A DNA stretch of 64,000 bases from Corbicula japonica (lineage: Eukaryota; Mollusca; Bivalvia; Venerida; Cyrenidae), in assembly GCA_038501625.1 (NCBI GenBank), contig JAZAYU010000356.1, positions 62,001-126,000 of the forward strand, read 5' to 3'. The notes beneath the pieces are model-generated. The model had not been told where the DNA came from, ran no database searches, and saw only the letters and a program-made list of their open reading frames with translations. Positions within the stretch are counted from its first letter, which is position 1. Each line of letters begins with the position of its first letter. Made by a program: the position numbers and the translations under genes. Below, piece by piece: positions 2,682 through 54,036 of this stretch.

Positions 2682-4466
2682 ATGAAGGAAAGGGTTAATC
2701 TCCAATATATTATCATCAGTTGGGACCAAAAAGTTTGACCAGAAAGCAGAATACATGTGTACCAAGAATAGCATCAAATATCAAGTTAATGCTCATTTTG
2801 GGAATTAAAAGTGTTCAATTATTAACATATTTTCTGTCATGAGCACATTTCAACATGATTTCATAATCAAAATATGTATGTGAGGTACATGTATAATCAA
2901 ATACACTATTTACAAGGTGTCTGTTTTATTTTTGCAAATTTTGTAAATATTCATGGTGTCACTAAATTTGCATCAAGAAGTTGTGATTTAGAAAATAAAA
3001 AGATCAGAGCTTTCATAATCATTTAAATTGTTGAAAAAAGTAGATTGCTGTGAAGAGGAAGAGAAACATTTCTTGCCATGTCAGTGGGTTTTTGGCCTCT
3101 TTAAATACATGTAAAAATCTGAATATACCGGTACTTGGATTTGCTTAAGCTGGACTTTAACACAAAAAAACTGGAAATTGCACTCATAATAAAAACAATG
3201 ATTTTTTTCTTTGTATGTTTATGTTTTAGCGATGTAACAGTAGAAATTTACATTTTTTAATATATGGTACTTTTTAAAGAGAATTTACCTATCATATTTT
3301 AAAGTAGTTGTGCCTAAATTTCTGCAACGAAAAATACAAAATCAAGAAAATATCAACTGGAATGAGCTTCAGAATTTTGAAATTCACATTTTCCAGTAAA
3401 TATATTACATTTTTAAAATACTTACCAGACAGAGATTCAAAAGTGGTTATGAATAATGGCATGTTAATGTGTTCATGGGTTTAAATTTTTTTGCAAACAA
3501 TCTCTTAAAATTGTTATTATACATTTTAAAAAATAGACCAACAACATTTTCAATGCATGATTTGATTGGCAAGCGCAATTCATTTATGTAATGAAAATAG
3601 ATATAAAGAAGCATTTTGTTTCAAATCAGTTACTTAGACCTGTAAAGGAGTGTACCATATGGTTAATCAGACTACATGATATTGTAAATGTTTATGTTTA
3701 ATTCATTGAGATTATTTCATCTATTTTGGCCCAATAGCTGAACTATTTTTCAACTTAAATAAGTAACTATCATGCACATTTAAGTAACTTGGCTCAAATA
3801 TGTACCTTATTGTCACCAAATGTGTATCATAATGTCACAATATTTTTCACACAGCATCTATAGCTTCAAAATTACTGTTGTTAATAACTGAAAATTGTCA
3901 TTCCTGGAGATATTTTCAAATGACTTTGCACAAATATGCCCCAAAATCTAGTTGATGTATCACACTAAATATTGAAGTCTCAATGTGGTGTTAATGTGAT
4001 GTACATGTATATTAAAACAGTACTTTTTAGGACTATATTATAACTTTATTCATTACATGCATATATATTTTTTGAATAGCATGGCACAATTTTGTGCAAT
4101 TGCAAGTGTAATCAAGGTAACATTTTAAAAAATAAAATTTATTTTTCAGACAATAATATATTTATTTTATGCACATGTGACAATATAATATTTTCATGTA
4201 TCAATGAAGAATTTATCAATATTCAATATTGCATTAAGTGAGGTAATGGAACACAGTTGGGTGTAAATTTAAGCACGTAGCCTTTGTGTTTACACATAAA
4301 AAGCCCAAATGTTTAGTAAAAGTCAGATTGCCAGTTGTCCAGCTGAATTAAGTTTATGTAGACTTAAATTCTTTCCAAAAATCACATAATTTTATCGTGC
4401 ATGAGTAGGCTAACTAATGTTAGAAACAAATTATTTTTTAATATAAATAATTATCTGAGATTAATA

Positions 4467-16227: not shown

Positions 16228-16500
16228 GTGTGTGAGTTCGTGGGTATTCATGGTGTACCCGTTTTCGTGTGTGAGTTCGTGGGTATTCATGGTGTACCCG
16301 TTTTCGTGTGTGAGTTCGTGGGTATTCATGGTGTACCCGTTTTCGTGTGTGAGTTCGTGGGTATTCATGGTATACCCGTTTTCGTGTGTGAGTTCGTGGG
16401 TATTCATGGTGTACCCGTTTTCGTGTGTGAGTTCGTGGGTATTCATGGTGTACCCGTTTTCGTGTGTGAGTTCGTGGGTATTCATGGTGTACCCGTTTTC
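16228..16500 (+). repeat. 39-bp minisatellite, 7 units
   Basis: Seven copies of a 39-bp unit (gtgtgagttcgtgggtattc, then atggtgtacccgttttc) are almost identical; one has tataccc for tgtaccc. Since 39 is divisible by three, frames of a 13-residue repeat open on both strands (ENGYTMNTHELTH-type on minus). Having several open frames on both strands argues for a non-coding minisatellite, although a repetitive peptide cannot be fully excluded. Confidence 0.95.
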
Positions 16501-16842
16501 GCGGATTTCTTGTGCAGATCGATCCAGCATAAAGAAAACTGTTAAATTAACATGATTTCAGAAAATAATATAAAAAAAAACACTGTTAAAGCACTGTTCG
16601 AAATGAAATTGCAAACTGATAATTTTTAAATGATTACTACGCACAATCAAAATTCAGTGTCAAATGTAGCCGGCAAAATCACTGTGTGGTTGAAAATTAC
16701 AGAATTAGTAGGCCCTACTTAGTTTCGAATATGATTTCGATGGTTCAAGTCCATTTTTAAATACAAAATCTGTCACTTTTACGAAAAGTAAATAGAATAA
16801 AAAAGACATCATAAACCTCTGCAAAAATATATCTTAAATATT

Positions 16843-24600: not shown

Positions 24601-25081
24601 CGATTGCTCTTATCCTCGAGCTGCTAGGTCACGTCGATTGTTCTTATCGTCGAGCTGCTAGGTCACGTCGATTGTTCTTATCCTCGAACTGCTAGGTCAC
24701 GTCGATTGTTCTTATCCTCGAGCTGCTAGGTCACGTCGATTGTTCTTATCCTCGAGCTGCTAGGTCACGTCGATTGTTCTTATCCTCGAGCTGCTAGGTC
24801 ACGTCGATCGTTCTTATCCTCGAGCTGCTAGGTCACGTTGATCGTTCTTATCCTCGAGCTGCTAGGTCACGTCGATCGTTCTTATCCTCGAGCTGCTAGG
24901 TCACGTCGATTGTTCTTATCCTCGAGCTGCTAGGTCACGTCGATCGTTCTTATCCTCGAGCTGCTAGGTCACGTCGATTGTTCTTATCCTCGAGCTGCTA
25001 GGTCACGTCGATTGTTCTTATCCTCGAGCTGCTAGGTCACGTCGATTGCTCTTATCCTCGAGCTGCTAGGTCACGTCGATT
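24601..25081 (+). repeat. 34-bp minisatellite, 14 units
   Basis: About fourteen units of 34 bp (ctcgagctgctaggtcacgt then cgattgttcttatc) are present. Variation is confined mainly to cgattg/cgatcg and one cgtcg/ctcga change. Each unit carries a ctcgag site and a ggtcacgt core, which resembles nuclear-receptor half-sites and bHLH/bZIP sites. The homogeneity suggests recent expansion. Confidence 0.96.
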
Positions 25082-31620: not shown

Positions 31621-32049
31621 TTAAACAAACAACCAAGACAAATGAGGGGGAAACTGGGAGCTTTATTCATAACTACGCTCCAATACTAAAATTAAAGCGC
31701 GCTGAAATACTGTGGTATCATTATATTCCGCACAGGTTTAAAATACGCGTATTTCCGCGCTAGGGTGAAGCGCAAAAATACATCTGACAAAATACAACTG
31801 CGCGAATAGAAGCCCACGCGAATATCCTTGCAACTTAGCGCGACCATTCTTCCCCGCGAAATTAAATGATACCACAGTCAATACAAAATAATACAAAACT
31901 TGTATCTAAATTCAAAAGTGCATGAAAGCGCGCCAGCATATCATAATACTACACAAATATAATTATGAGCGCATAGAAAATTATACACACAAAAGCATAT
32001 CAAATAATATCAGGTGATTCACAAATTTGTTTGTGTAAAGTTTATCGTC
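31621..32049 (-). repeat. Split direct repeat B2 (429 bp)
   Basis: Same sequence as 32272-32700, with offset 651 and no length difference. It begins ttaaacaaacaaccaagaca and ends gtgtaaagtttatcgtc. The inner part carries an inverted pair: actgtggtatcatt (31710) and aatgataccacagt (31866). Confidence 0.95.
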
Positions 32050-32107
32050 AGCTTCAGAAATAAAGGCATGTTATATCACAACAGCAAAACAAGGGAGGGT
32101 GGGTGGG

Positions 32108-32271
32108 AAGAGAAGCGTCCAGCTATTGCGAGAATCAAGCGCGCACTGCTGCCAACAGAAAGGGGCGAGGGAGCCAAAACTCAGAGAATCCCCTGAGACA
32201 GGTCATGTGACCACAATTAAGGTGCGCCGCTTGATTGCTTGTCTAAACGAAATTAAGGATCTTAATTCTAT
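32108..32271 (-). repeat. Split direct repeat A2 (164 bp)
   Basis: Same sequence as 36311-36474 (offset 4203), from aagagaagcgtccagctatt to aaggatcttaattctat. Confidence 0.95.
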
Positions 32272-32700
32272 TTAAACAAACAACCAAGACAAATGAGGGG
32301 GAAACTGGGAGCTTTATTCATAACTACGCTCCAATACTAAAATTAAAGCGCGCTGAAATACTGTGGTATCATTATATTCCGCACAGGTTTAAAATACGCG
32401 TATTTCCGCGCTAGGGTGAAGCGCAAAAATACATCTGACAAAATACAACTGCGCGAATAGAAGCCCACGCGAATATCCTTGCAACTTAGCGCGACCATTC
32501 TTCCCCGCGAAATTAAATGATACCACAGTCAATACAAAATAATACAAAACTTGTATCTAAATTCAAAAGTGCATGAAAGCGCGCCAGCATATCATAATAC
32601 TACACAAATATAATTATGAGCGCATAGAAAATTATACACACAAAAGCATATCAAATAATATCAGGTGATTCACAAATTTGTTTGTGTAAAGTTTATCGTC
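32272..32700 (-). repeat. Split direct repeat B1 (429 bp)
   Basis: Internal copy of B, directly abutting A2. On the minus strand it follows the recombinase stop codon by 40 bp. Confidence 0.95.
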
Positions 32701-32740
32701 CAAGAGTAATACCCATAATGTAGGAGTAGAGTAGGTAGAA

Positions 32741-33742
32741 TTAAACATGTTTTTGCATGTGCTGTACAATTTTGAAACGTGATTGAATATCATTTTCAAT
32801 ATAAGACTGGTAACAAGTAGAACGCCAGTCACCAAGAAGTTTAAAGCAGTCAGGAGAAAGTCCAACAGAGTAGCAAAAGCTTGCACCACCACGCCTAAAA
32901 GAATGAGTTGCAATGTCTGTTGGATTAACTTTGCACAAGGATAGACAATGCCGAACACGGCCAATAAACTTATCGGAGGTTAAAACAATCAGTTTGTTGT
33001 TCTCGCGGTAGGTGAAGGCGGGACTATCCATGTCCGCGCCCAATGTTAGTTGTTGATAGTTAAAGACAGCTTGAACCGGGCACAACACATTATTCTTCAT
33101 TCGGGGAAACGGAATGTCAAAAGTTCTGGACTGGAACTGTATCACTTTACTCCAGCGAATGTGTAACATGATACCCCAGGGGAAGAATAATATATCGCGC
33201 CGGCGTAAATGTTTGGAAGTGTCAAACTCCGACGCAGATTGAAGAATAACATTGCTGCGTCTTAACAGACCATAAAACATTGTTAGACAGACTGCCCACA
33301 CGGTTGCATCAAAGGAAGAGGTAACATCCAAATGCACGAGAATGTTTTTCAATAGAGCAGGCGTTATAGGTTTTTTGCGAATCACAGAGTCACCAAGATG
33401 GCGTCGAATGCCTTTCATAGTGCACGAAAGTTGGAAATTATCCTTCAGTGGGTTAGGCAGGCCCCATTCATTGTGAAGTAAACGAATCACGTTGAGATAT
33501 TGTTTCACAGAATTGTATTTTATCTTCCTAGCAAGAAACGCTGCATACCGACATATCGTCACAGATGAAGCAGGGACTGGGGCGTATCCCATGTTCTGAC
33601 AGAATTCTAAGTATGATTGACGATGGGTTCTGTAAGTCCTTTTGGTATTCTCTGAGTACGTCCGGCTGTGATAAAAGGCGATCTCATTATCAAGGGCGGA
33701 TTCTAGAGTCCGAATGCTCTCTGCAATGAGAGAAATTGCAAG
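32741..33742 (-). CDS. Retrotransposon tyrosine recombinase
   Basis: This is the integrase of the element. The frame is open from 33742, just after a stop, to 32741. The first Met (33592) would remove about 50 residues that read as genuine recombinase N-terminus (YSENTKRTYRTHRQSYLEFC, a core-binding pattern). Expression by frameshift from the RT frame across the 33703-33742 overlap is therefore more likely than initiation at 33592. Catalytic residues are all visible: first Arg in YGLLRRSNVI, Lys in RWSKVIQF, H-x-x-R in THSFRRGGAS, and LGDWRS followed by the Tyr nucleophile in CYQSYI. The domain is complete and uninterrupted. Confidence 0.92.
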   Translation of the reverse strand, partial: LAISLIAESIRTLESALDNEIAFYHSRTYSENTKRTYRTHRQSYLEFCQNMGYAPVPASSVTICRYAAFLARKIKYNSVKQYLNVIRLLHNEWGLPNPLKDNFQLSCTMKGIRRHLGDSVIRKKPITPALLKNILVHLDVTSSFDATVWAVCLTMFYGLLRRSNVILQSASEFDTSKHLRRRDILFFPWGIMLHIRWSKVIQFQSRTFDIPFPRMKNNVLCPVQAVFNYQQLTLGADMDSPAFTYRENNKLIVLTSDKFIGRVRHCLSLCKVNPTDIATHSFRRGGASFCYSVGLSPDCFKLLGDWRSTCYQSYIENDIQSRFKIVQHMQKHV

Positions 33743-35328
33743 TTATTAATAAGAGACATCAGCCTCGGCACACCACCCGGCTCATGCAACCGACTAACAC
33801 TGTCGGCTAAAATGTTTGATTCTCCGCTGTAATACACGGCTTTGAGGCGGAAATTGAAAACTGCTGACAGCCAGAAGACGCGTCGCAAGGAATCCATAAC
33901 AACAGAATTTTTAGAGCTGCCCTTATTTATAATTGAACAGGCCGCGATATTGTCACAATGTACAAACACTTTTTTGTTGGCTAAAACAGGAGCCCACCTC
34001 CGTATTGCAGGTTCAAGAGCAAGTACTTCAAGATAATTAATTGGCAAGGCCGCGGTCTTTTGGGACCACGGGGTATAAACAAAGTCTCCAAGATAAAATG
34101 CTCCAGCAGCCACTTTACACGCATCAATTGTAATGGGTATAGCCGGTCTACAATCTACAATAGGCATAGTGCCGTTAAAAATATGCATGAAATGCAACCA
34201 CCAAGTCAAATCTTGTTTCATATCATTAGTTACTAACGTCCGATGCCATGGCTTTCGCAGTGTGTTTGACTTGTCAATTAAACGCCGCATGTGAAACCGG
34301 CCGCCATAAATACACTGTGTAATCCAATGCAATTTTCCCGCTAAACTTTGTATGTCACGTTTAGTCACTTTCTTTGACACCAGAAATCTTTTCATGACAG
34401 ACTCAATTTCCATTAGCTTGGGCCTTGGAATACAGAATGTCATGCTGACCGAATTGAGGGTAATTCCTAAGAATACGAGTTCACGTTTTGGCCCTTCTAT
34501 CTTTTTATAATTTATTTGAAATCCCAGATTGCGTAACAGGCGTAACAAGGTGTTCAAGGTAGCCATGCATTCATGGTAAGTCTTAGCCACGATGAAAAAA
34601 TCGTCTAAGTAAACAACTATGTTATGATATCCTTTGCAAGCCATGATAACACGAACGGCTTGAGTTAAGCGATTAAATATCTCTGGAGACCGCGCGGCAC
34701 CAAAGGGAAGTCGTTCGTCAATCATGTATGTGAAATGTTTATTTCCCCGAAAACGCCACTTAAGCCCGGTGGCTTTATAATTAGAAGGGTGTATTTTCAC
34801 GCTACGGTAAGCATTAGCTAGGTCTACTTTGGCAAAAAAGGATCCTGGTGTCACTAAGTCCATTGCATCTTGAAGTGATTGGTACTTGAAGTGATTAGTG
34901 GTAGCGAAGTCATTAAGAGCATGCCCCAGGGGTCTACTAGCATCATGAATTAATCTTACTTTCGAACTGTCTTTCTTTGGGATGGCCCCTAAGGCTGACA
35001 CAATATTGGGTTTTTCACTGACGATCCGGTACCGGCCATTTTCTAATTCCGTAAGGATCTGATCCTCCACGGGCGCGCGCATTTTTTCTGAAGTTGCTGA
35101 CGGGTAATTATTTACCTCGACAAAATTGGAAATGGAGGCGGGATCGACAATGTAAAATCCATCTTTTATTCCAGTTAAGAGAAATTCACGATATTCGTAA
35201 TCCATTGGAAGAGAATGCTCCCAAGCTTCATATAGTAAACTTGCAGATCGGCCACTTATATGTTTTTTGACAAATCCGGTTGCGCTTGATTCTTTGGCGG
35301 CGGGGGTCGTTTGTGTTGATAACGGCAT
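33703..35328 (-). CDS. Retrotransposon reverse transcriptase-RNase H
   Basis: This 541-residue frame copies the element RNA to DNA. RT motifs are in order: IPKKDSSKVRLIHDASRP, FFAKVDLANAYRSVKIHP (motif A Asp), LPFGAARSPEIFNRL (motif B), VVYLDDFFIVAK (YLDD catalytic box), and NYKKIEGPKRELVFLGITL. RNase H follows: ITIDACKVAAGAFYLG (first Asp), NYLEVLALEPAIRRW (Glu), VFVHCDNIAACSII (Asp) and SNILADSVSRL (final Asp). All catalytic acids appear intact. No methyltransferase, protease or integrase is attached. The 5' end overlaps Gag by 73 nt and the 3' end overlaps the recombinase frame by about 40 nt, both in different registers. Recoding or internal initiation is therefore needed. Confidence 0.93.
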   Translation of the reverse strand: MPLSTQTTPAAKESSATGFVKKHISGRSASLLYEAWEHSLPMDYEYREFLLTGIKDGFYIVDPASISNFVEVNNYPSATSEKMRAPVEDQILTELENGRYRIVSEKPNIVSALGAIPKKDSSKVRLIHDASRPLGHALNDFATTNHFKYQSLQDAMDLVTPGSFFAKVDLANAYRSVKIHPSNYKATGLKWRFRGNKHFTYMIDERLPFGAARSPEIFNRLTQAVRVIMACKGYHNIVVYLDDFFIVAKTYHECMATLNTLLRLLRNLGFQINYKKIEGPKRELVFLGITLNSVSMTFCIPRPKLMEIESVMKRFLVSKKVTKRDIQSLAGKLHWITQCIYGGRFHMRRLIDKSNTLRKPWHRTLVTNDMKQDLTWWLHFMHIFNGTMPIVDCRPAIPITIDACKVAAGAFYLGDFVYTPWSQKTAALPINYLEVLALEPAIRRWAPVLANKKVFVHCDNIAACSIINKGSSKNSVVMDSLRRVFWLSAVFNFRLKAVYYSGESNILADSVSRLHEPGGVPRLMSLINNLQFLSLQRAFGL

Positions 35329-36245
35329 GAAACTCCAAACGGACAGCTACCTTTTGCTTTGAAGATTTTACATTCTTCTTTATGTGGCGATTGTGATGGC
35401 GTTCCATTCGACCCTGTCTGTCGAGCGCGTTTTGGCACGAGAATCTGTAATTCCATATGAGGCGAAAACGTACCCCATTTGAACTTATGTTCAGCCTGCT
35501 GCTCGCGATATAGGAAATCAAAGTTCAGTACACTATTCCAGTCATAAATCTCGGCGAATTCAAAGATCTTGGTAGTATACGCAAGATAAAACTCGATTTC
35601 GTCCCTCTTAAGTTGTCCGGATGCGAGCAGATGATTTAACAGACGCATATTTGCAGCACCCCATTCCTCGAGGAAAATACCCAAATAGGGATGCTCGTCA
35701 TCAGTTTTTAGGACGAGTGCTTCTGATGTTTCGGTTCCGGACCTAATCACAAACTCCTTACGTCTATGTTGCCGGCGGCGTTTAGCTTTCTCGGTTAGGA
35801 ACTGCGTGATATGCACGACCTTTGCCGACGTTGCCTTCAATGTTAATATGGTTCGGGGATCCATATGGCTAAATGCATCGTTTGATGTTGCCGATGTGTG
35901 ACCGGAGGGGGCGGTTGTGTTTAATAATAAATCGTCCAAGATCTTACCTGCCCCTGTCAACTGCTCGTCATTTGTCACTTCGTTTGCCATATGAACGGCA
36001 CTTGTGTCGACGTGGTTGGTGTTTTTTGTCCATTGCTCGATTTCACGCAGTAACAGTTTTGTTGTACCCAGCGGAAAGCCAAGCTCCTTCAAGTCCTTAA
36101 GTTCCAGTAACGCTAACACATCTTTAGACGTTAATTCCTCTTGTCTCAGAATCTGAGTCACTTTTCGGCTGAGACCAAGCCTAGATGACCACTCATCGAA
36201 GTTAAAGTCACTGATTTCTGCTGATTCCTGTTCTGTGTCACTCAT
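35256..36245 (-). CDS. Retrotransposon Gag: SAM-like domain plus CCCH zinc finger
   Basis: This is the first ORF of the tyrosine-recombinase element, expected to coat the element RNA. I take the ATG at 36245 (MSDTEQESAEISD), giving 329 residues. An in-frame ATG at 36380 would add 45 residues, but its codons lie in repeat A1. Residues about 16-75 (FDEWSSRLGL through ELGFPLGTTKLLLREIEQW) look like a SAM-type helical domain, with the LxLKDLKELG and GTTKLLL signatures. Near the C-terminus CKIFKAKGSCPFGVSCRYQH fits C-x8-C-x5-C-x3-H, a CCCH RNA-binding finger in place of the usual CCHC knuckle. The end overlaps the RT frame by 73 nt in another register. Confidence 0.85.
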   Translation of the reverse strand: MSDTEQESAEISDFNFDEWSSRLGLSRKVTQILRQEELTSKDVLALLELKDLKELGFPLGTTKLLLREIEQWTKNTNHVDTSAVHMANEVTNDEQLTGAGKILDDLLLNTTAPSGHTSATSNDAFSHMDPRTILTLKATSAKVVHITQFLTEKAKRRRQHRRKEFVIRSGTETSEALVLKTDDEHPYLGIFLEEWGAANMRLLNHLLASGQLKRDEIEFYLAYTTKIFEFAEIYDWNSVLNFDFLYREQQAEHKFKWGTFSPHMELQILVPKRARQTGSNGTPSQSPHKEECKIFKAKGSCPFGVSCRYQHKRPPPPKNQAQPDLSKNI

Positions 36246-36310
36246 GATTATGATAAATAAAGCAAACAGTTCATTTAAGTAATAACACTGAGATAAATAA
36301 CACTGAGATA

Positions 36311-36474
36311 AAGAGAAGCGTCCAGCTATTGCGAGAATCAAGCGCGCACTGCTGCCAACAGAAAGGGGCGAGGGAGCCAAAACTCAGAGAATCCCCTGAG
36401 ACAGGTCATGTGACCACAATTAAGGTGCGCCGCTTGATTGCTTGTCTAAACGAAATTAAGGATCTTAATTCTAT
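36311..36474 (-). repeat. Split direct repeat A1 (164 bp), element 5' end
   Basis: Outer copy of A at the minus-strand 5' end of the element. It overlaps the longest possible Gag start (36380) and would contain the promoter and leader. Confidence 0.95.
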
Positions 36475-48600: not shown

Positions 48601-51600
48601 TCAGCATATGATATGTAATAGTTAATTAATAATAAGATATGTGGCAATGTTTCTTTCTTAAGATTTCCTTATTTATGCAAATATTCCAATATGAATTTCC
48701 CATCCCTAAAAGTAACAATTTAAAGTCTTTTTTAAACAATATAGTTAAGGGTGTTTGAACATTAAAAAAAACACAATAGGATTGTAATAATGATATGGTC
48801 GAATGCTGGGATTTTGCTTTGCATAAATAGCATTAAAAAATTTTAATGTTGTGGTAGACATGATGAGAATATATATTTTACATACTTCAAAAAATATCGC
48901 ACCATATTTTAATTTGGGTGACTTTAATACTTTGAATGTAAAATGGGCAGTTAGAACTAATGAAAAGTGTAAATTGTGTCATTTTCGATATGTAGCCACA
49001 ATCCCATCATCAAAATAATAAAAGTCCCTCACATCAAAGAGAAGAGTGAACTCCATTTCCAAACAAATGTAAATTCCTATTATCCCCATCATTACAAGAA
49101 TTTATATTTTATTTTTAGTGTGCAGAAACCTTCACAAAGGTAACAAAGCTCCCAGCAGAAAAGAAAGATCCGGCAATGTTTGGTGATGATGACGATGATG
49201 ATGATGATGATGATGATGATCATGTGGAGGAGGAGGTGGAGAATCAATTTGGTTCTGGACATCCAAAGGTATTAAAGTTACAGTAAAACTCTTTTGTTAT
49301 GTCAACCAATGCCAGCAATTTCATCAATAACCTATTGAAAAAAAATCATCTTTGTGAAAACAGTATATTATCCCCAGTGGTTATTTTATTGAATTTTCAG
49401 TAATGTGAATAAATAATGCCGTTATTGAGATTCTGTTCACAGAGAGGAAGACATAACTGCCCATTTGCTTTTTCCCTGAAGAAGACTTAAACAGTTTATT
49501 ACTACAATCAGATCATCTTTGTTTATAGGGGATAACTTTATTGTGGTTGTACTTATTCACAAAATACAATTTCTACCGTTAGATTATGATCAAATCATTT
49601 TACTATTTGTTTTGTTTTCAAAATCCTCCTCAAAAATTATTTCTCAGGAAACTAGCAAAATTAATCCTTTCCTCCGTATATTCACATTTTATCACTTATG
49701 CAAACAGTGTGGATCGAGATCAGCAACTGAAATTGTGCTTTCTGATCGTTTTTAACTGTTTGATTCTTTTTCTTAATGCATCTTCAAAACTGTTCATAAC
49801 CCATTCAAACCATATAAGTCCCCATGTTGTCATGGCGCGTCTCATATTTTGTATTGCAATGTGGAACAAATTTAATTTACAAGTGTATTAGTGACAAACA
49901 ATGGCTGTTTGTGAAGAAGGCACGCTAGTTTTGTTTGATATCATTCAGGATAAACCAGTGGAGGAGAAGAAGCCTTTTGGACGGGTGTCTATGTTTTGTC
50001 CTGGCAGTCCTGATTTATTTGGAATATCAAGAAAGTTGAATGGCAAGAAAATAGATACTGTGGAAGAGATGGTAGTGAAGAAACCAGAGGCTAGAAGACT
50101 TGCAGGTAAACATCCTGAACAGTGTAATGGTCATAAGATACTGCTTATTTTTAACCTCTTTTCCATATACCGTATAGCGGGTTATTTCTGCGGTCATAAA
50201 TTTCTGCGTTTTGCCCCCAAAAATGGATGCAAAAATTTCTGTGTTTTTTATTTCTGCGTTTTCGGTTCCCATGAAGGATAAATTTCTGCGGTTCATATTG
50301 GGTAAGGTGTCGTAAGAATAACACGACTATGATATACACATACTATTTGTTTTTCACAGATATTTTATTCATGGGTAATACCTGTTACCTAATTTATTTT
50401 GTCAAAAAATTACAAAGATATTTCTCATCGATGAATAACAACTCTCAAACAACTATTCAACTGAATTCAATGTTTGAGAAATGTTTGAGCAAATGTCGCG
50501 TTTATAGTATGCCTATACGATAACAATGTGCGGTAATTGATCGTAATTATTTTACCCTGTATGTATTGTGAAACGCATTATCTCGGACATGGCCACTCCG
50601 GCGATTTTCGCTTGAAAATGAGCTAATATTTTGCGATTTAAATTTCTGCTGGTATTTTTTTTTGCTGGATATATTTCTGCGATTTCATCCAAAGACCGCA
50701 GAAACGCAGAAATTTGACACCCGCAGAAATTACCCGCTATACGGTATATGGGTTTTATATCATTTGCAGTCTATTCTGGGTCTACATTGGTTGCTTTTTG
50801 GTAAGACAGGTTTGACTGATTGTTACATGACATAATGATAAACGTAAGACCCGTTCAGGTTTGACTGATTGTTACATGACAGACTGATACACATATGACC
50901 CAGTCAGGTTTGACTGATTGTTACATGACAGACTGATAAACATATGACCCAGTCAGGTTTGACTGATTGTTACATGACAGACTGATAAACATATGACCAG
51001 GTCAGGTTTGACTGATTGTTACATGACAGACTGATAAACATATGACCCATTCAGGTTTGACTGATTGTTACATGACAGACTGATAAACATATGACCAGGT
51101 CAGGTTTGACTGATTGTTACATGACAGACTGATACACATATGACCAGGTCAGGTATTACTGATTGTTACAGGACATAATAATAAACATATGACTGTCTGA
51201 TATCCCAGATTGTTGCATGAAATGACTAATATACCATCTTTTTTACTATATTAAAGTTATTTTTTTGCTTCTGAAAAGAATCAAATTATTGTATAAAAAT
51301 ATTACTACCTTTTTACCATTTACATGTTTATATGTTTTCCTAGCGGATCCATTTCTTGGTGGTGAAAATGAAGATCTGTTTGCTGGACCAGTCCAGAAAC
51401 AGGAATTAGACCAACTGGATGAAGTCCGACAGGATGTAAGGAAACCAGAACCTGTCAAGCAAGATGTTAAGAAAGTAAACCCAGTCAAACAGGCATCTGA
51501 AAAGCCATCTACATCCAAAGCAATTTATGTAAGTAAAAGGAATTTTATTGTTATAGGTCTATATATTTGTTTTAACTATTTTCATTTTTCATAAGATATG

Positions 51601-54036
51601 TGAAATAAAGATGCACAAATAACAGTTATTTAGGCGAAATGTTATTGAACTGATCCCCATTGCTGTGAGGAAGATTTTTGCATATTTTGAATTAGCATTC
51701 TTAAAGCATCTTCAAAACTGTTCATAACCCATTCAAACCATATAAGTCCCCATGTTGTCATGGCGCGTCTCATATTTTGTATTGCAATGTGGAACAAATT
51801 TAATTTACAAGTGTATTAGTGGCAAACAATGGCTGTTTGTGAAGAAGGCACACTAGTTTTGTTTGATATCATTCAGGATAAACCAGTGGAGGAGAAGAAG
51901 CCTTTTGGACGGGTGTCTATGTTTTGTCCTGGCAGTCCTGATTTATTTGGAATATCAAGAAAGTTGAATGGCAAGACAATAGATACTGTGGAAGAGATGG
52001 TAGTGAAGAAACCAGAGGCTAGAAGACTTGCAGGTAAACATCCTGAACAGTGTAATGGTCCTAAGATACTGCTTATTTTTAACCTCTTTTCCATATATAT
52101 GGGTTTTATATCATTTGCAGTCTATTCTGGGTCTACATTGGTTGCTTTTTGGTAAGACAGGTTTGACTGATTGTTACATGACAGAATGATAAACGTAAGA
52201 CCCGTTCAGGTTTAACTGATTGTTACATGACAGACTGATAGACATATGACCAGGTCAGGTTTGACTGATTGTTACATGACAGACTGATAAACATATGACC
52301 CAGTCAGGTTTGACTGATTGTTACATGACAGACTGATACACATAAGACCCGTTCAGGTTTGACTGATTGTTACATGACAGACTGATAAACATATGACCAG
52401 GTCAGGTTTGACTGATTGTTACATGACAGACTGATAAACATATGACCCAGTCAGGTTTGACAGATTGTTACATGACAGACTGATACACATATGACCCAGT
52501 CAGGTTTGACTGATTGTTACATGACAGACTGATAAACATATGACCCATTCAGGTTTGACTGATTGTTACATGACAGACTGATACACATATGACCAGGTCA
52601 TGTTTGACTGATTGTTACATGACAGACTGATACACATATGACCCTGTCAGGTATTACTGATTGTTACAGGACAGACTGATAAACATATGACCCATTCAGG
52701 TTTGACTGATTGTTACATGACAGACTGATACACATATGACCCAGTCAGGTTTGACTGATTGTTACATGACAGACTGATAAACATATGACCAGGTCAGGTT
52801 TGACTGATTGTTACATGACAGACTGATAAACATATGACCCAGTCAGGTTTGACTGATTGTTACATGACAGACTGATAAACATATGACCCATTCAGGTTTG
52901 ACTGATTGTTACATGACAGACTGATACACATATGACCAGGTCAGGTTTGACTGATTGTTACATGACAGACTGATACACATATGACCCTGTCAGGTATTAC
53001 TGATTGTTACAGGACAGACTGATAAACATATGACCCATTCAGGTTTGACTGATTGTTACATGACAGACTGATACACATATGACCAGGTCAGGTTTGACTG
53101 ATTGTTACATGACAGACTGATACACATATGACCCTGTCAGGTATTACTGATTGTTACAGGACAGACTGATAAACATATGACCCATTCAGGTTTGACTGAT
53201 TGTTACATGACAGACTGATACACATATGACCAGGTCAGGTTTGACTGATTGTTACATGACAGACTGATAAACATATGACCCATTCAGGTTTGACTGATTG
53301 TTACATGACAGACTGATACACATATGACCAGGTCAGGTTTGACTGATTGTTACATGACAGACTGATAAACATATGACCCAGTCAGGTTTGACTGATTGTT
53401 ACATGACAGACTGATAAACATATGACCCATTCAGGTTTGACTGATTGTTACATGACAGACTGATACACATATGACCAGGTCAGGTTTGACTGATTGTTAC
53501 ATGACAGACTGATAAACATATGACCCGTTCAGGTTTGACTGATTGTTACATGACAGACTGATAAACATATGACCCATTCAGGTTTGACTGATTGTTACAT
53601 GACAGACTGATAAACATATGACCCATTCAGGTTTGACTGATTGTTACATGACAGACTGATAAACATATGACCAGGTCAGGTTTGACTGATTGTTACATGA
53701 CAGACTGATACACATATGACCCAGTCAGGTATTACTGATTGTTACAGGACATAATAATAAACATATGACTGTCTGATATTCCTGATTATTGCATGAAATG
53801 ACTAATATACCATCTTTTTTACTATATTGAAGTTATTTCTTTGCTTCTGACAAGAATCAAATTATTGTATAAAAATGATACTACTTTTTTACCATTTACA
53901 TGTTTATATGTTTTCCTAGTGGATCCATTTCTTGGTGGTGAAAATGAAGATCTGATTGCTGGACCAGTCCAGAAACAGGAATTAGACCAACTGGATGAAG
54001 TCCGACAGGATGTAAGGAAACCAGAACCTGTCAAGC
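39664..54036 (+). CDS. Zinc-ribbon multi-exon gene, family unrecognised (3' end in gap)
   Basis: The coding exons I support, with matching phases, are 39664-39754, 42686-42724, 43154-43230, 43864-44158, 44462-44496 or 44756-44790 (duplicated), 49119-49268, 49949-50105, 51344-51528, 51877-52033, and 53920 into the gap. All have AG/GT borders. Exon 1 begins at ATG and encodes a zinc ribbon (C-x2-C-x10-C-x2-C: CGNC...CVHC). Exon 3 is Lys-rich (LLKKKKN). Exon 4 (98 residues) has alternating strand/helix character with FMSINNKLLRK, GTFSFKVPRE and a C-terminal LKIYVKI strand, like a PB1/ubiquitin-type beta-grasp; this is a guess. The 49119 exon has a run of 12 Asp, then Glu. The last exons are acidic and Lys/Pro-rich, so probably disordered. 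That all exons form one gene is inferred from phase and order. I cannot assign a function. Confidence 0.6.
40137..40217. repeat. 39-bp-arm hairpin with 3-nt loop
   Basis: Arm 40137-40175 (from cacaaatgaatgttactaat) and arm 40179-40217 (ending attagtaacattcatttgtg) are complementary with one mismatch around the loop ggt. It may be a minimal MITE or foldback relic. Confidence 0.9.
40853..41710 (+). repeat. Intronic repeat of ~160-210 bp modules, bivalve type
   Basis: It opens with 'gactattcgaagaataggtg' and 'ccccggtgtcggcgtcggta'. It then repeats a module five to six times: 'ggtccataactttaaaacta', 'cttgagatatcaac', 'ttgaaacttgga' and 'ttatgcccctttt(t)cactta', at about 40945, 41105, 41185, 41350, 41490 and 41618. 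Similar module chains are common in bivalve introns. No ORF is maintained. Confidence 0.8.
44340..44800 (+). repeat. Tandem duplication of a microexon with its upstream intron
   Basis: 'ttattaagattgtagtttt' through 'ggtacagttaaag' and the exon at 44462-44496 are repeated, diverged, at 44650-44790. Both 35-nt exons keep AG/GT borders and phase 1-to-0, coding DLTQLRRAFKGK and DKRQLSRAFNGK. Confidence 0.75.
44925..45515 (+). repeat. Intronic repeat of ~147-bp modules
   Basis: Three modules each contain 'caaactttcaaattatattg', 'gacaacacgctcatgatgat', 'tctcaaggtcaaggtcac' and 'tttgatggagttatgcccc'. They are preceded by 'cgaaatggcgatacatagga' and end with 'caccagagggcgacacaagt'. Confidence 0.85.
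46430..46940 (+). repeat. Intronic repeat of ~145-bp modules, third family
   Basis: Three modules have 'tcatatcttct(a/g)a(c/g)cc', 'tggtcaaatgtt' and 'gcagaacccatgttccaacc'. The leading part reads 'gtccggtccataacttctca'. It is built like the repeats at 40853 and 44925 but differs in sequence. Confidence 0.75.
50170..50744. mobile_element. 575-bp TIR element in TA target, intronic
   Basis: TIRs ccgtatagcgggttatttct and its complement (agaaattacccgctatacgg) are flanked by TA on both sides. Copy 2 has the exact empty site: ccatatatatggg at 52090. The inner part repeats 'atttctgcg(t/g)' many times. No transposase is encoded; the 89-codon minus frame across it is a by-product of those repeats. 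Confidence 0.92.
50806..51195 (+). repeat. 49-bp minisatellite, about 8 units (copy 1 intron)
   Basis: The unit caggtttgactgattgttac, then atgacagactgataaacata and tgacccagt, varies at aaaca/cacac and cccagt/ccaggt/cccatt. It lies between exons A and B of the duplicated pair. Confidence 0.95.
51697..54036 (+). repeat. Tandem exon-pair duplication, copy 2 (truncated by gap)
   Basis: This is the second exon pair: 51877-52033 and 53920 onward. The splice sites and phases match copy 1. The intron lacks the 575-bp element but has a much longer 49-bp array. It ends at the N gap. Confidence 0.9.
52158..53765 (+). repeat. 49-bp minisatellite, about 33 units (copy 2 intron)
   Basis: It has the same unit as the array at 50806 but about four times longer. 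Variant units (cccatt, ccaggt, ccctgt with 'ggtattac') recur in blocks, giving a visible higher-order pattern around 52540-53340. Confidence 0.95.

Follow-up and report, generated by a model that had tools for sequence, protein, structure and literature searches.

The window analysed here is a stretch of 64,000 nucleotides (contig C356, positions 62001-126000) from the 1.07 Gb genome assembly of Corbicula japonica, which comprises 1,630 contigs. On its minus strand it carries a tyrosine recombinase (YR) retrotransposon of the Ngaro type, 4,854 bp in length. The element is best explained as young and structurally complete, with a reverse transcriptase (RT) produced by −1 frameshifting and a recombinase translated from a spliced mRNA as a fusion with the N-terminal part of Gag (Gag-N/YR); we put the probability of this reading at about 75%. 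The element has split direct repeats and three open frames, and it is one of four near-identical copies at unrelated sites in the genome, in which private changes are common to both members of a repeat pair.

Read along the minus strand, the order is A1-gag-RT/RNase H-YR-B1-A2-58 bp-B2 (Table 1). Exact extension of the repeats bore out the initial annotation, in which they had been described as complete and identical: the A copies (164 bp each) and the B copies (429 bp each) agree at 100% of their positions. The inner repeats, B1 and A2, are placed downstream of YR, as in the split direct repeats of Ngaro-like elements. The same layout of A, B, and spacer, with lengths within 1 bp, was found in three other copies; therefore, a chance origin of the arrangement is excluded. 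B1 and A2 abut, and their border corresponds to the two ends of the element as they would be joined in a circle. The element ends are paired by direct repeats only. The inverted pairs have arms of 23 nt, all inside the B copies, and the inverted terminal repeats and internal complementary region of DIRS-like elements are absent. The spacer folded no better than shuffled sequences by a method that does not score G-quadruplexes. A C-rich border between A2 and the spacer was also seen in L019, L020, L021, and L041, though the remaining spacer sequence differs.

The gag, RT/RNase H, and YR frames of the window copy contain no internal stop codon. As the initial annotation stated, all the residues that we take to be catalytic are present. 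D175, D248, and D249 of RT and D408, E440, D465, and D515 of RNase H are invariant in 13 of 13 aligned sequences, and R161, K199, H280, R283, W306, and Y314 of YR are invariant in 20 of 20. The YR frame also gave a weak match to an integrase N-terminal domain (Pfam, E 3e-4). A Pfam scan of the six distinct minus-strand ORFs of at least 60 codons lying wholly inside the element gave no match to a methyltransferase (Dam), in agreement with the first description, and none to an SGNH hydrolase; no DDE integrase was found in these ORFs. The same Dam model matches 82 places elsewhere in the genome.

Splice sites were scored with a simple matrix of our own, built on the usual features of animal splice sites. 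A donor in gag, GGGCAG/GTAAGATC, ranks first among the 272 GT dinucleotides of the element. The acceptor at the RT/YR border, CTCTCATTGCAG/AG, ranks third among 231 AG dinucleotides, and the two higher scores belong to a single site present in both A copies. Both sites are in phase 1, and their joining is predicted to give a protein of 425 residues. We infer from these signals that YR is expressed from a spliced mRNA that joins Gag residues 1–99 to the recombinase. In L019, the homologous donor ranks first of 236 and the acceptor eighth of 232. The 13-base run GGGGCAGGTAAGA is tied as the longest identical stretch between the gag genes of the window element and L019, which are 62% identical.

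The donor was compared within gag in 11 families (the window element, L019, L064, L066, L024–L028, L056, and L057, of which the last two are contaminant loci). The ranks of the phase-1 donor, in this order, are 1, 1, 1, 1, 1, 3, 1, 1, 2, 2, and 1 among 34–73 GTs. It tops gag in eight of the 11 families, being second in two and third in one (binomial 0.009, with related families treated as independent), and the combination of the donor ranks gave 1e-8, a value inflated because the donors were picked after looking. For the acceptor, ten families were compared (the window element, L019, L020, L024–L028, L056, and L057). The site at the YR start is in phase 1 by position in all ten, with ranks of 3, 8, 1, 4, 1, 14, 3, 2, 1, and 4 among 231–407 AGs. 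Fisher combination of these ranks, corrected for the choice among about five AGs, gave 4e-6, and 3e-4 for seven families. The donor is present in all seven further loci that cover it (L058–L062, L064, and L066, two of which are among the 11 families), and the acceptor could be located in five of six (L058, L059, L061, L063, and L065). Among the 84 ungapped rows of the Gag alignments (91 in total), the donor codons correspond to A-G-K/N/E/R, with G kept in 79 and K/N/E/R in 82; the residues at this position would mostly be encodable by G/GTRA.

Translation of YR without splicing, through a second frameshift at the RT/YR overlap, re-initiation, or an internal promoter, is a doubtful alternative that still deserves serious attention; the splice-like signals would then be a matter of chance or a by-product of coding. 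The RT and YR ORFs overlap by 39 nt in different frames, and a frameshifted, overlapping YR ORF is the published reading in the portion of the source available to us (PMC3783388). Moreover, the donor lies within a conserved Gag motif, and the acceptor of the L024–L028 group lies within the stretch coding for the C-terminus of RNase H. However, the overlap contains no in-frame slippery heptamer, and a start at the first ATG would remove 50 residues of YR. The donor and acceptor are also both in phase 1 in the families readable in an unbroken frame, which favors the spliced mRNA.

In the methyltransferase-bearing loci L043, L045, and L046, all three from one family, the start of YR likewise has an acceptor-like site, which is second in rank of 234–244. 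Spliced YR mRNAs may thus reach beyond Ngaro to PAT/DIRS-type elements, as judged from the acceptor side only. A Branchiostoma protein named by NCBI (P0218), with about 250 non-YR residues before a YR, would fit a Gag-N/YR gene model; it was set aside, as it shows no match to the Gag of the window element.

The gag genes of the window copy and of the three other full-length copies (L009, L010, and L011) end in TCA AAA AAC ATA TAA, and RT lies in the −1 frame across this stretch. A AAA AAC, the textbook form of a −1 slippery sequence, is the sole in-frame heptamer of slippery pattern in the gag/RT overlap. This arrangement suggests that RT is made by −1 frameshifting at A AAA AAC, close to the end of gag. 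Among decayed relatives, the heptamer is kept in L015 and altered in L013 and L014. In the sister families (RT identity of 49–68%), gag and RT share one frame with a UGA between them. The context is TGA CGC in L019, L060, L061, and L066 and TGA CGT in L020–L023, L058, L059, and L064; in the decayed copies, the stop was lost in L062, and more stops occur nearby in L060 and L061. A UGA with C as the next base is a recognized leaky stop, and its presence between gag and RT points to a read-through fusion. In the contaminant locus L057, gag and RT share a frame with TGA CTC between them, but gag itself contains another in-frame TGA and RT is broken. In the other, L056, RT is in the −1 frame, and C CCA AAA occurs close to where gag ends.

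Among 90 Gag homologues, 66 have a recognizable zinc finger and tail. The tail contains xKN in 48 of these against 2.5 expected, as PKN or SKN in 41 of the 48, and KN lies within one residue of the end in 29. PKN or SKN at the Gag end can be regarded as the protein trace of NCA AAA AAC. RT might instead be made from its own ATG (35328) inside gag through re-initiation or leaky scanning, and we consider this unlikely. This RT-frame ATG is placed about 70 nt upstream of the gag stop, and no structure was found downstream of the slippery site, as would suit such a start. However, in the sister families a single UGA-C separates gag from an RT in the same frame, and KN at the Gag end is far commoner than expected; both argue for a recoded Gag-RT.

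Several points weigh against the proposed expression scheme. The splice-rank statistics are biased, because donors were selected only after inspection of the sequences and the families are relatives of one another, and the coding of Gag and RNase H explains part of the conservation of the splice signals. The donor phase does not fit in the broken copy L020, both splice signals are missing from L013, and the acceptor of L060 is unreadable. The Gag N-terminus and YR occur together in no protein among the 120 listed of 393 matches to the fusion, nor in the listed RT or Gag matches. A genome search with a 300-nt exon junction gave 19 matches, none of which spans the junction, so that no spliced retrocopies were seen. 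On the frameshift side, 18 of the 66 Gag tails lack KN, and the RNA structure 3' of the slippery site is no stronger than that of shuffled sequences (z 0.22, folded without pseudoknots). The SAM-like assignment in the Gag part of the predicted fusion is weak (4 of 25 rows).

A 42-protein RT tree places the window RT with metagenomic RTs and keeps it apart from Gypsy and from those elements of this genome that bear a methyltransferase (99/98). In a tree of RT and RNase H (25 rows, with no named DIRS1, PAT, Ngaro, or VIPER references), the window lineage forms a clade of eight rows (100/99), and the L024–L028 Ngaro group and the methyltransferase-bearing elements (100/99) form a clade each. The union of the window lineage with L024–L028 has a support of 73/70, and long branches meet at the deep nodes of the RT trees. 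The outcome that the initial annotation named as refuting, an RT nested among methyltransferase-bearing PAT or DIRS elements, was not seen: the RT does not fall within the methyltransferase-bearing clade of its own genome. It is very unlikely that the element belongs to PAT or DIRS, has lost the methyltransferase, and resembles Ngaro only in appearance. Such a loss is reported for a lineage in Caenorhabditis briggsae, convergence of features is on record (PMC4157794), and the AU test does not reject a tree that unites the window lineage with the methyltransferase clade (p-AU 0.078 for RT/RNase H and 0.20 for the 42-protein RT tree). However, the methyltransferase-bearing elements form a separate clade in both trees. 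The window RT matches the RTs of L024–L028 (31–33% identity, about 200 bits). A tblastn search at E 0.01 linked it to none of four methyltransferase loci, whose RTs are partial and were equally missed by the L024 RT.

The element is described as Ngaro-like by its structure, with an RT that appears to fall outside the methyltransferase clade and a weakly supported deep kinship with L024–L028. It represents a new family. The Gag of its lineage combines a CCCH zinc finger with a weak SAM-like domain, and the lineage lacks an SGNH hydrolase. Of the 90 Gag relatives, five rows carry an organism name, in each case that of the bivalve Dreissena polymorpha. RT relatives occur in metagenome-assembled genomes named Candidatus Thiodiazotropha and Sedimenticola, which we take to be bivalve symbionts. 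Viral contigs gave no match to the element.

The RT protein matches at least 84 places in the genome, four of them at 99–100% over the full length. L009, L010, and L011 differ from the window copy by 7, 19, and 11 mismatches across the element, respectively, and the internal regions of the four copies are 99.5–99.8% identical. All three frames are open in each, with a YR frame of 357 codons in L010 instead of 333. The family has therefore moved recently, as these three further copies lie at unrelated sites, and it is not represented by decayed relatives only. Together with the complete repeats, the open frames, and the missing Dam domain, they support the first assessment that the element is intact and may still be mobile. 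The accompanying statement that intact copies are rarely seen did not hold: other Ngaro families with open frames exist in this genome, and for Xenopus, numerous Ngaro copies that could be active have been catalogued (PMC9210276).

Flanks of 1.1–1.3 kb per side were compared among the four loci, and the sole homology is a 50-bp inverted match between L009 and L010. That the copies are old segmental duplicates or assembly doubles instead of separate transpositions can practically be dismissed. Duplication could give copies nearly as alike, and a mini-copy was amplified inside another repeat in L037/L038, but the unrelated flanks and the exact junctions of all four copies at identical element ends argue against it. 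In the seven copies of which both ends were read (four full copies, one solo copy, L012, and L016), the flanks share 0–2 bp; therefore, there is no regular target-site duplication. L009 lies within a minisatellite whose adjacent units continue through the point of insertion, so no sequence seems to have been lost from the empty site.

Private indels in the repeats are present in both repeat copies in all three cases observed. The window copy has an extra C in A1 and also in A2, L010 has a single-base deletion in both B copies, and L011 likewise has one of its own in both B copies. Such pairing is what would be predicted if both repeats are regenerated from one template in each round, and gene conversion is an alternative source. 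Within copies, one repeat difference was found, a substitution in B2 of L010, among 593 repeat positions in each of the four copies. This points to a very recent insertion, with no rate applied.

Other copies are incomplete. L012 and L016, which are older, have a single B at the right end and lack A2-B2. The RT protein of L012 is 94% identical, and its gag and RT are fused into a single frame because the A-run is longer by one A. C13 holds a solo A-spacer-B copy, 650 bp long and 99.7% identical. L013, L016, L017, and L018 share their YR breakpoints, with element positions 2770–3104 deleted and about 3195–3414 inverted. This YR-dead sublineage seems to have multiplied, presumably mobilized in trans, with pairwise comparison as the only basis for judging the insertions independent. 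A family with 82% identity in A was considered as a second autonomous family and rejected, as the two members read (L037 and L038) are solo A-spacer-B copies inside a longer repeat. This larger repeat is 99% identical over 1.9 kb. Among 40 listed A matches, 14 have 82% identity and 13 of these share one identical score, which suggests more solo copies of this kind. The internally deleted copy L039 in C25 was examined as a splicing product and also rejected; it resumes at element position 3328 and not at the acceptor.

On the preferred reading, the expression and replication of the element could proceed as follows. Gag would be translated from the full-length RNA, and a fraction of the ribosomes would slip by −1 at A AAA AAC near the gag stop to produce Gag-RT/RNase H. 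A second mRNA, from which 2.2 kb between gag codon 100 and the RT/YR border is spliced out, would encode Gag 1–99, with its SAM-like domain, followed by the recombinase. RT would copy the RNA, and the abutting B1 and A2 would act as the template for rebuilding both ends and closing a DNA circle. The Gag-N/YR protein would then recombine the B/A junction of the circle into the genome without a target-site duplication. The circle steps are those of the published model for split direct repeats and the order of YR retrotransposons.

It is somewhat more probable than not that the scheme extends to Ngaro as a group. The recombinase would be a Gag-N/YR fusion from a spliced mRNA, with phase-1 sites kept from this genome to the contaminant families (two metagenome-derived contigs of other origin), and RT recoding would have switched between −1 frameshifting and UGA-C read-through among relatives in one genome. 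If so, a possible role of the Gag portion would be to hold the recombinase at the particle or the cDNA. Few retrotransposons have been studied as little as those with a YR, and the route from one RNA to three proteins is left open in the portions of the literature available to us. The conserved splice and recoding signals offer a concrete and cheaply testable scheme with a predicted Gag-recombinase fusion, and the four near-identical copies and the sister families with an alternative recoding signal make it accessible to ordinary RNA sequencing. No report of a spliced YR or a slippery site in Ngaro was found in the literature searched, which was available in part and excludes the 2004 Ngaro paper and the 2015 review. 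Introns of some YR elements may be mentioned in these two. For both reasons, we do not claim a first description of the expression scheme.

Table 1. Features of the Ngaro-type element in window coordinates.
Feature	Position	Strand	Basis
Whole element, 4,854 bp, target-site duplication ≤1 bp	31621..36474	-	sequence and flanks
A1, left end of the split direct repeats, 164 bp	36311..36474	-	identical to A2
gag ORF, 329 aa, ATG 36245, stop 35256-35258	35259..36245	-	ORF list, alignments
SAM-like domain of Gag, weak, residues 17-70	36036..36197	-	Pfam SAM_2 E 4e-4; 4/25 aligned sequences
Predicted intron, 2,227 nt; donor GGGCAG/GTAAGATC at 35948/35947, acceptor CTCTCATTGCAG/AG at 33721/33720, both phase 1	33721..35947	-	splice-site scoring
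CCCH zinc finger of Gag, residues 290-311	35313..35378	-	CCCH model matches 25/25 aligned sequences
A AAA AAC slippery heptamer, gag frame, ends one codon before gag stop; RT in −1 frame	35262..35268	-	sequence, four copies
RT/RNase H ORF, 547 codons open, RVT_1 residues 122-297	33706..35346	-	Pfam RVT_1 E 1e-17
YR ORF, 333 codons open, first ATG at codon 51	32744..33742	-	ORF list, alignment
B1, 429 bp	32272..32700	-	identical to B2
A2, 164 bp, abuts B1 directly	32108..32271	-	identical to A1
GGGAGGGTGGGTGGG, G-quadruplex-capable, strand opposite the coding strand, A2/spacer border	32093..32107	+	sequence
Spacer A2-B2, 58 bp, A2 side C-rich	32050..32107	-	kept in 4/4 full copies and the solo A-spacer-B copy
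B2, right end, 429 bp	31621..32049	-	identical to B1
AATAAA near the B2 end	31662..31667 (second copy in B1: 32313-32318)	-	sequence

Outside the element, two ORFs of the window gave no Pfam match. One 49-bp tandem repeat forms two arrays, at 52158-53769 (33 copies) and 50807-51193 (8 copies), with 500 N near 54 kb. Two further regular tandem arrays are located at 16228-16501 (39 bp unit, 7 copies, 99%) and 24601-25081 (34 bp unit, 14 copies, 97%).

Compared with the Ngaro-like elements of zebrafish, Xenopus, sea urchin, and Cafeteria, the window element retains the A1-ORFs-B1-A2-B2 order and the gag, RT/RNase H, and YR genes, without a methyltransferase. Solo A-B copies occur here as they do in Cafeteria, judging from the section of that study available (PMC8547959). 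In contrast, Xenopus Ngaro families carry an SGNH hydrolase ORF, according to the accessible part of the report (PMC9210276), whereas the minus-strand ORFs of the window element gave no such match. This ORF is a trait of vertebrate Ngaro and not of every Ngaro element. Its Gag differs in having a CCCH zinc finger and a SAM-like domain, and the proposed −1 frameshift and spliced YR have no counterpart in the literature searched, as far as the portions available extend.

The second Ngaro group of this genome, L024–L028, shares RT/RNase H and YR, and all five loci have a phase-1 donor in gag and a phase-1 acceptor at YR. Split direct repeats are found in four of the five, and L027 shows one such repeat pair only. 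These loci differ in their RTs, as described above, and in a GDSL/SGNH ORF in L024, L026, and L028, the three scanned. The PAT/DIRS-like loci L043–L050 also have RT and YR, and the acceptor-like site at the YR start was found in the three related loci checked; they differ in a methyltransferase, a CCHC-type Gag motif in the translations, and a separate RT clade. Retroviruses produce Gag and Gag-Pol by recoding and express a downstream gene by splicing. The resemblance of the window element to them would be in expression logic only, with recoding for Gag and Gag-RT and splicing for the downstream gene. Unlike retroviruses, the element has no long terminal repeats, no DDE integrase was found in it, and its predicted spliced product is an integrase-like enzyme fused to Gag.

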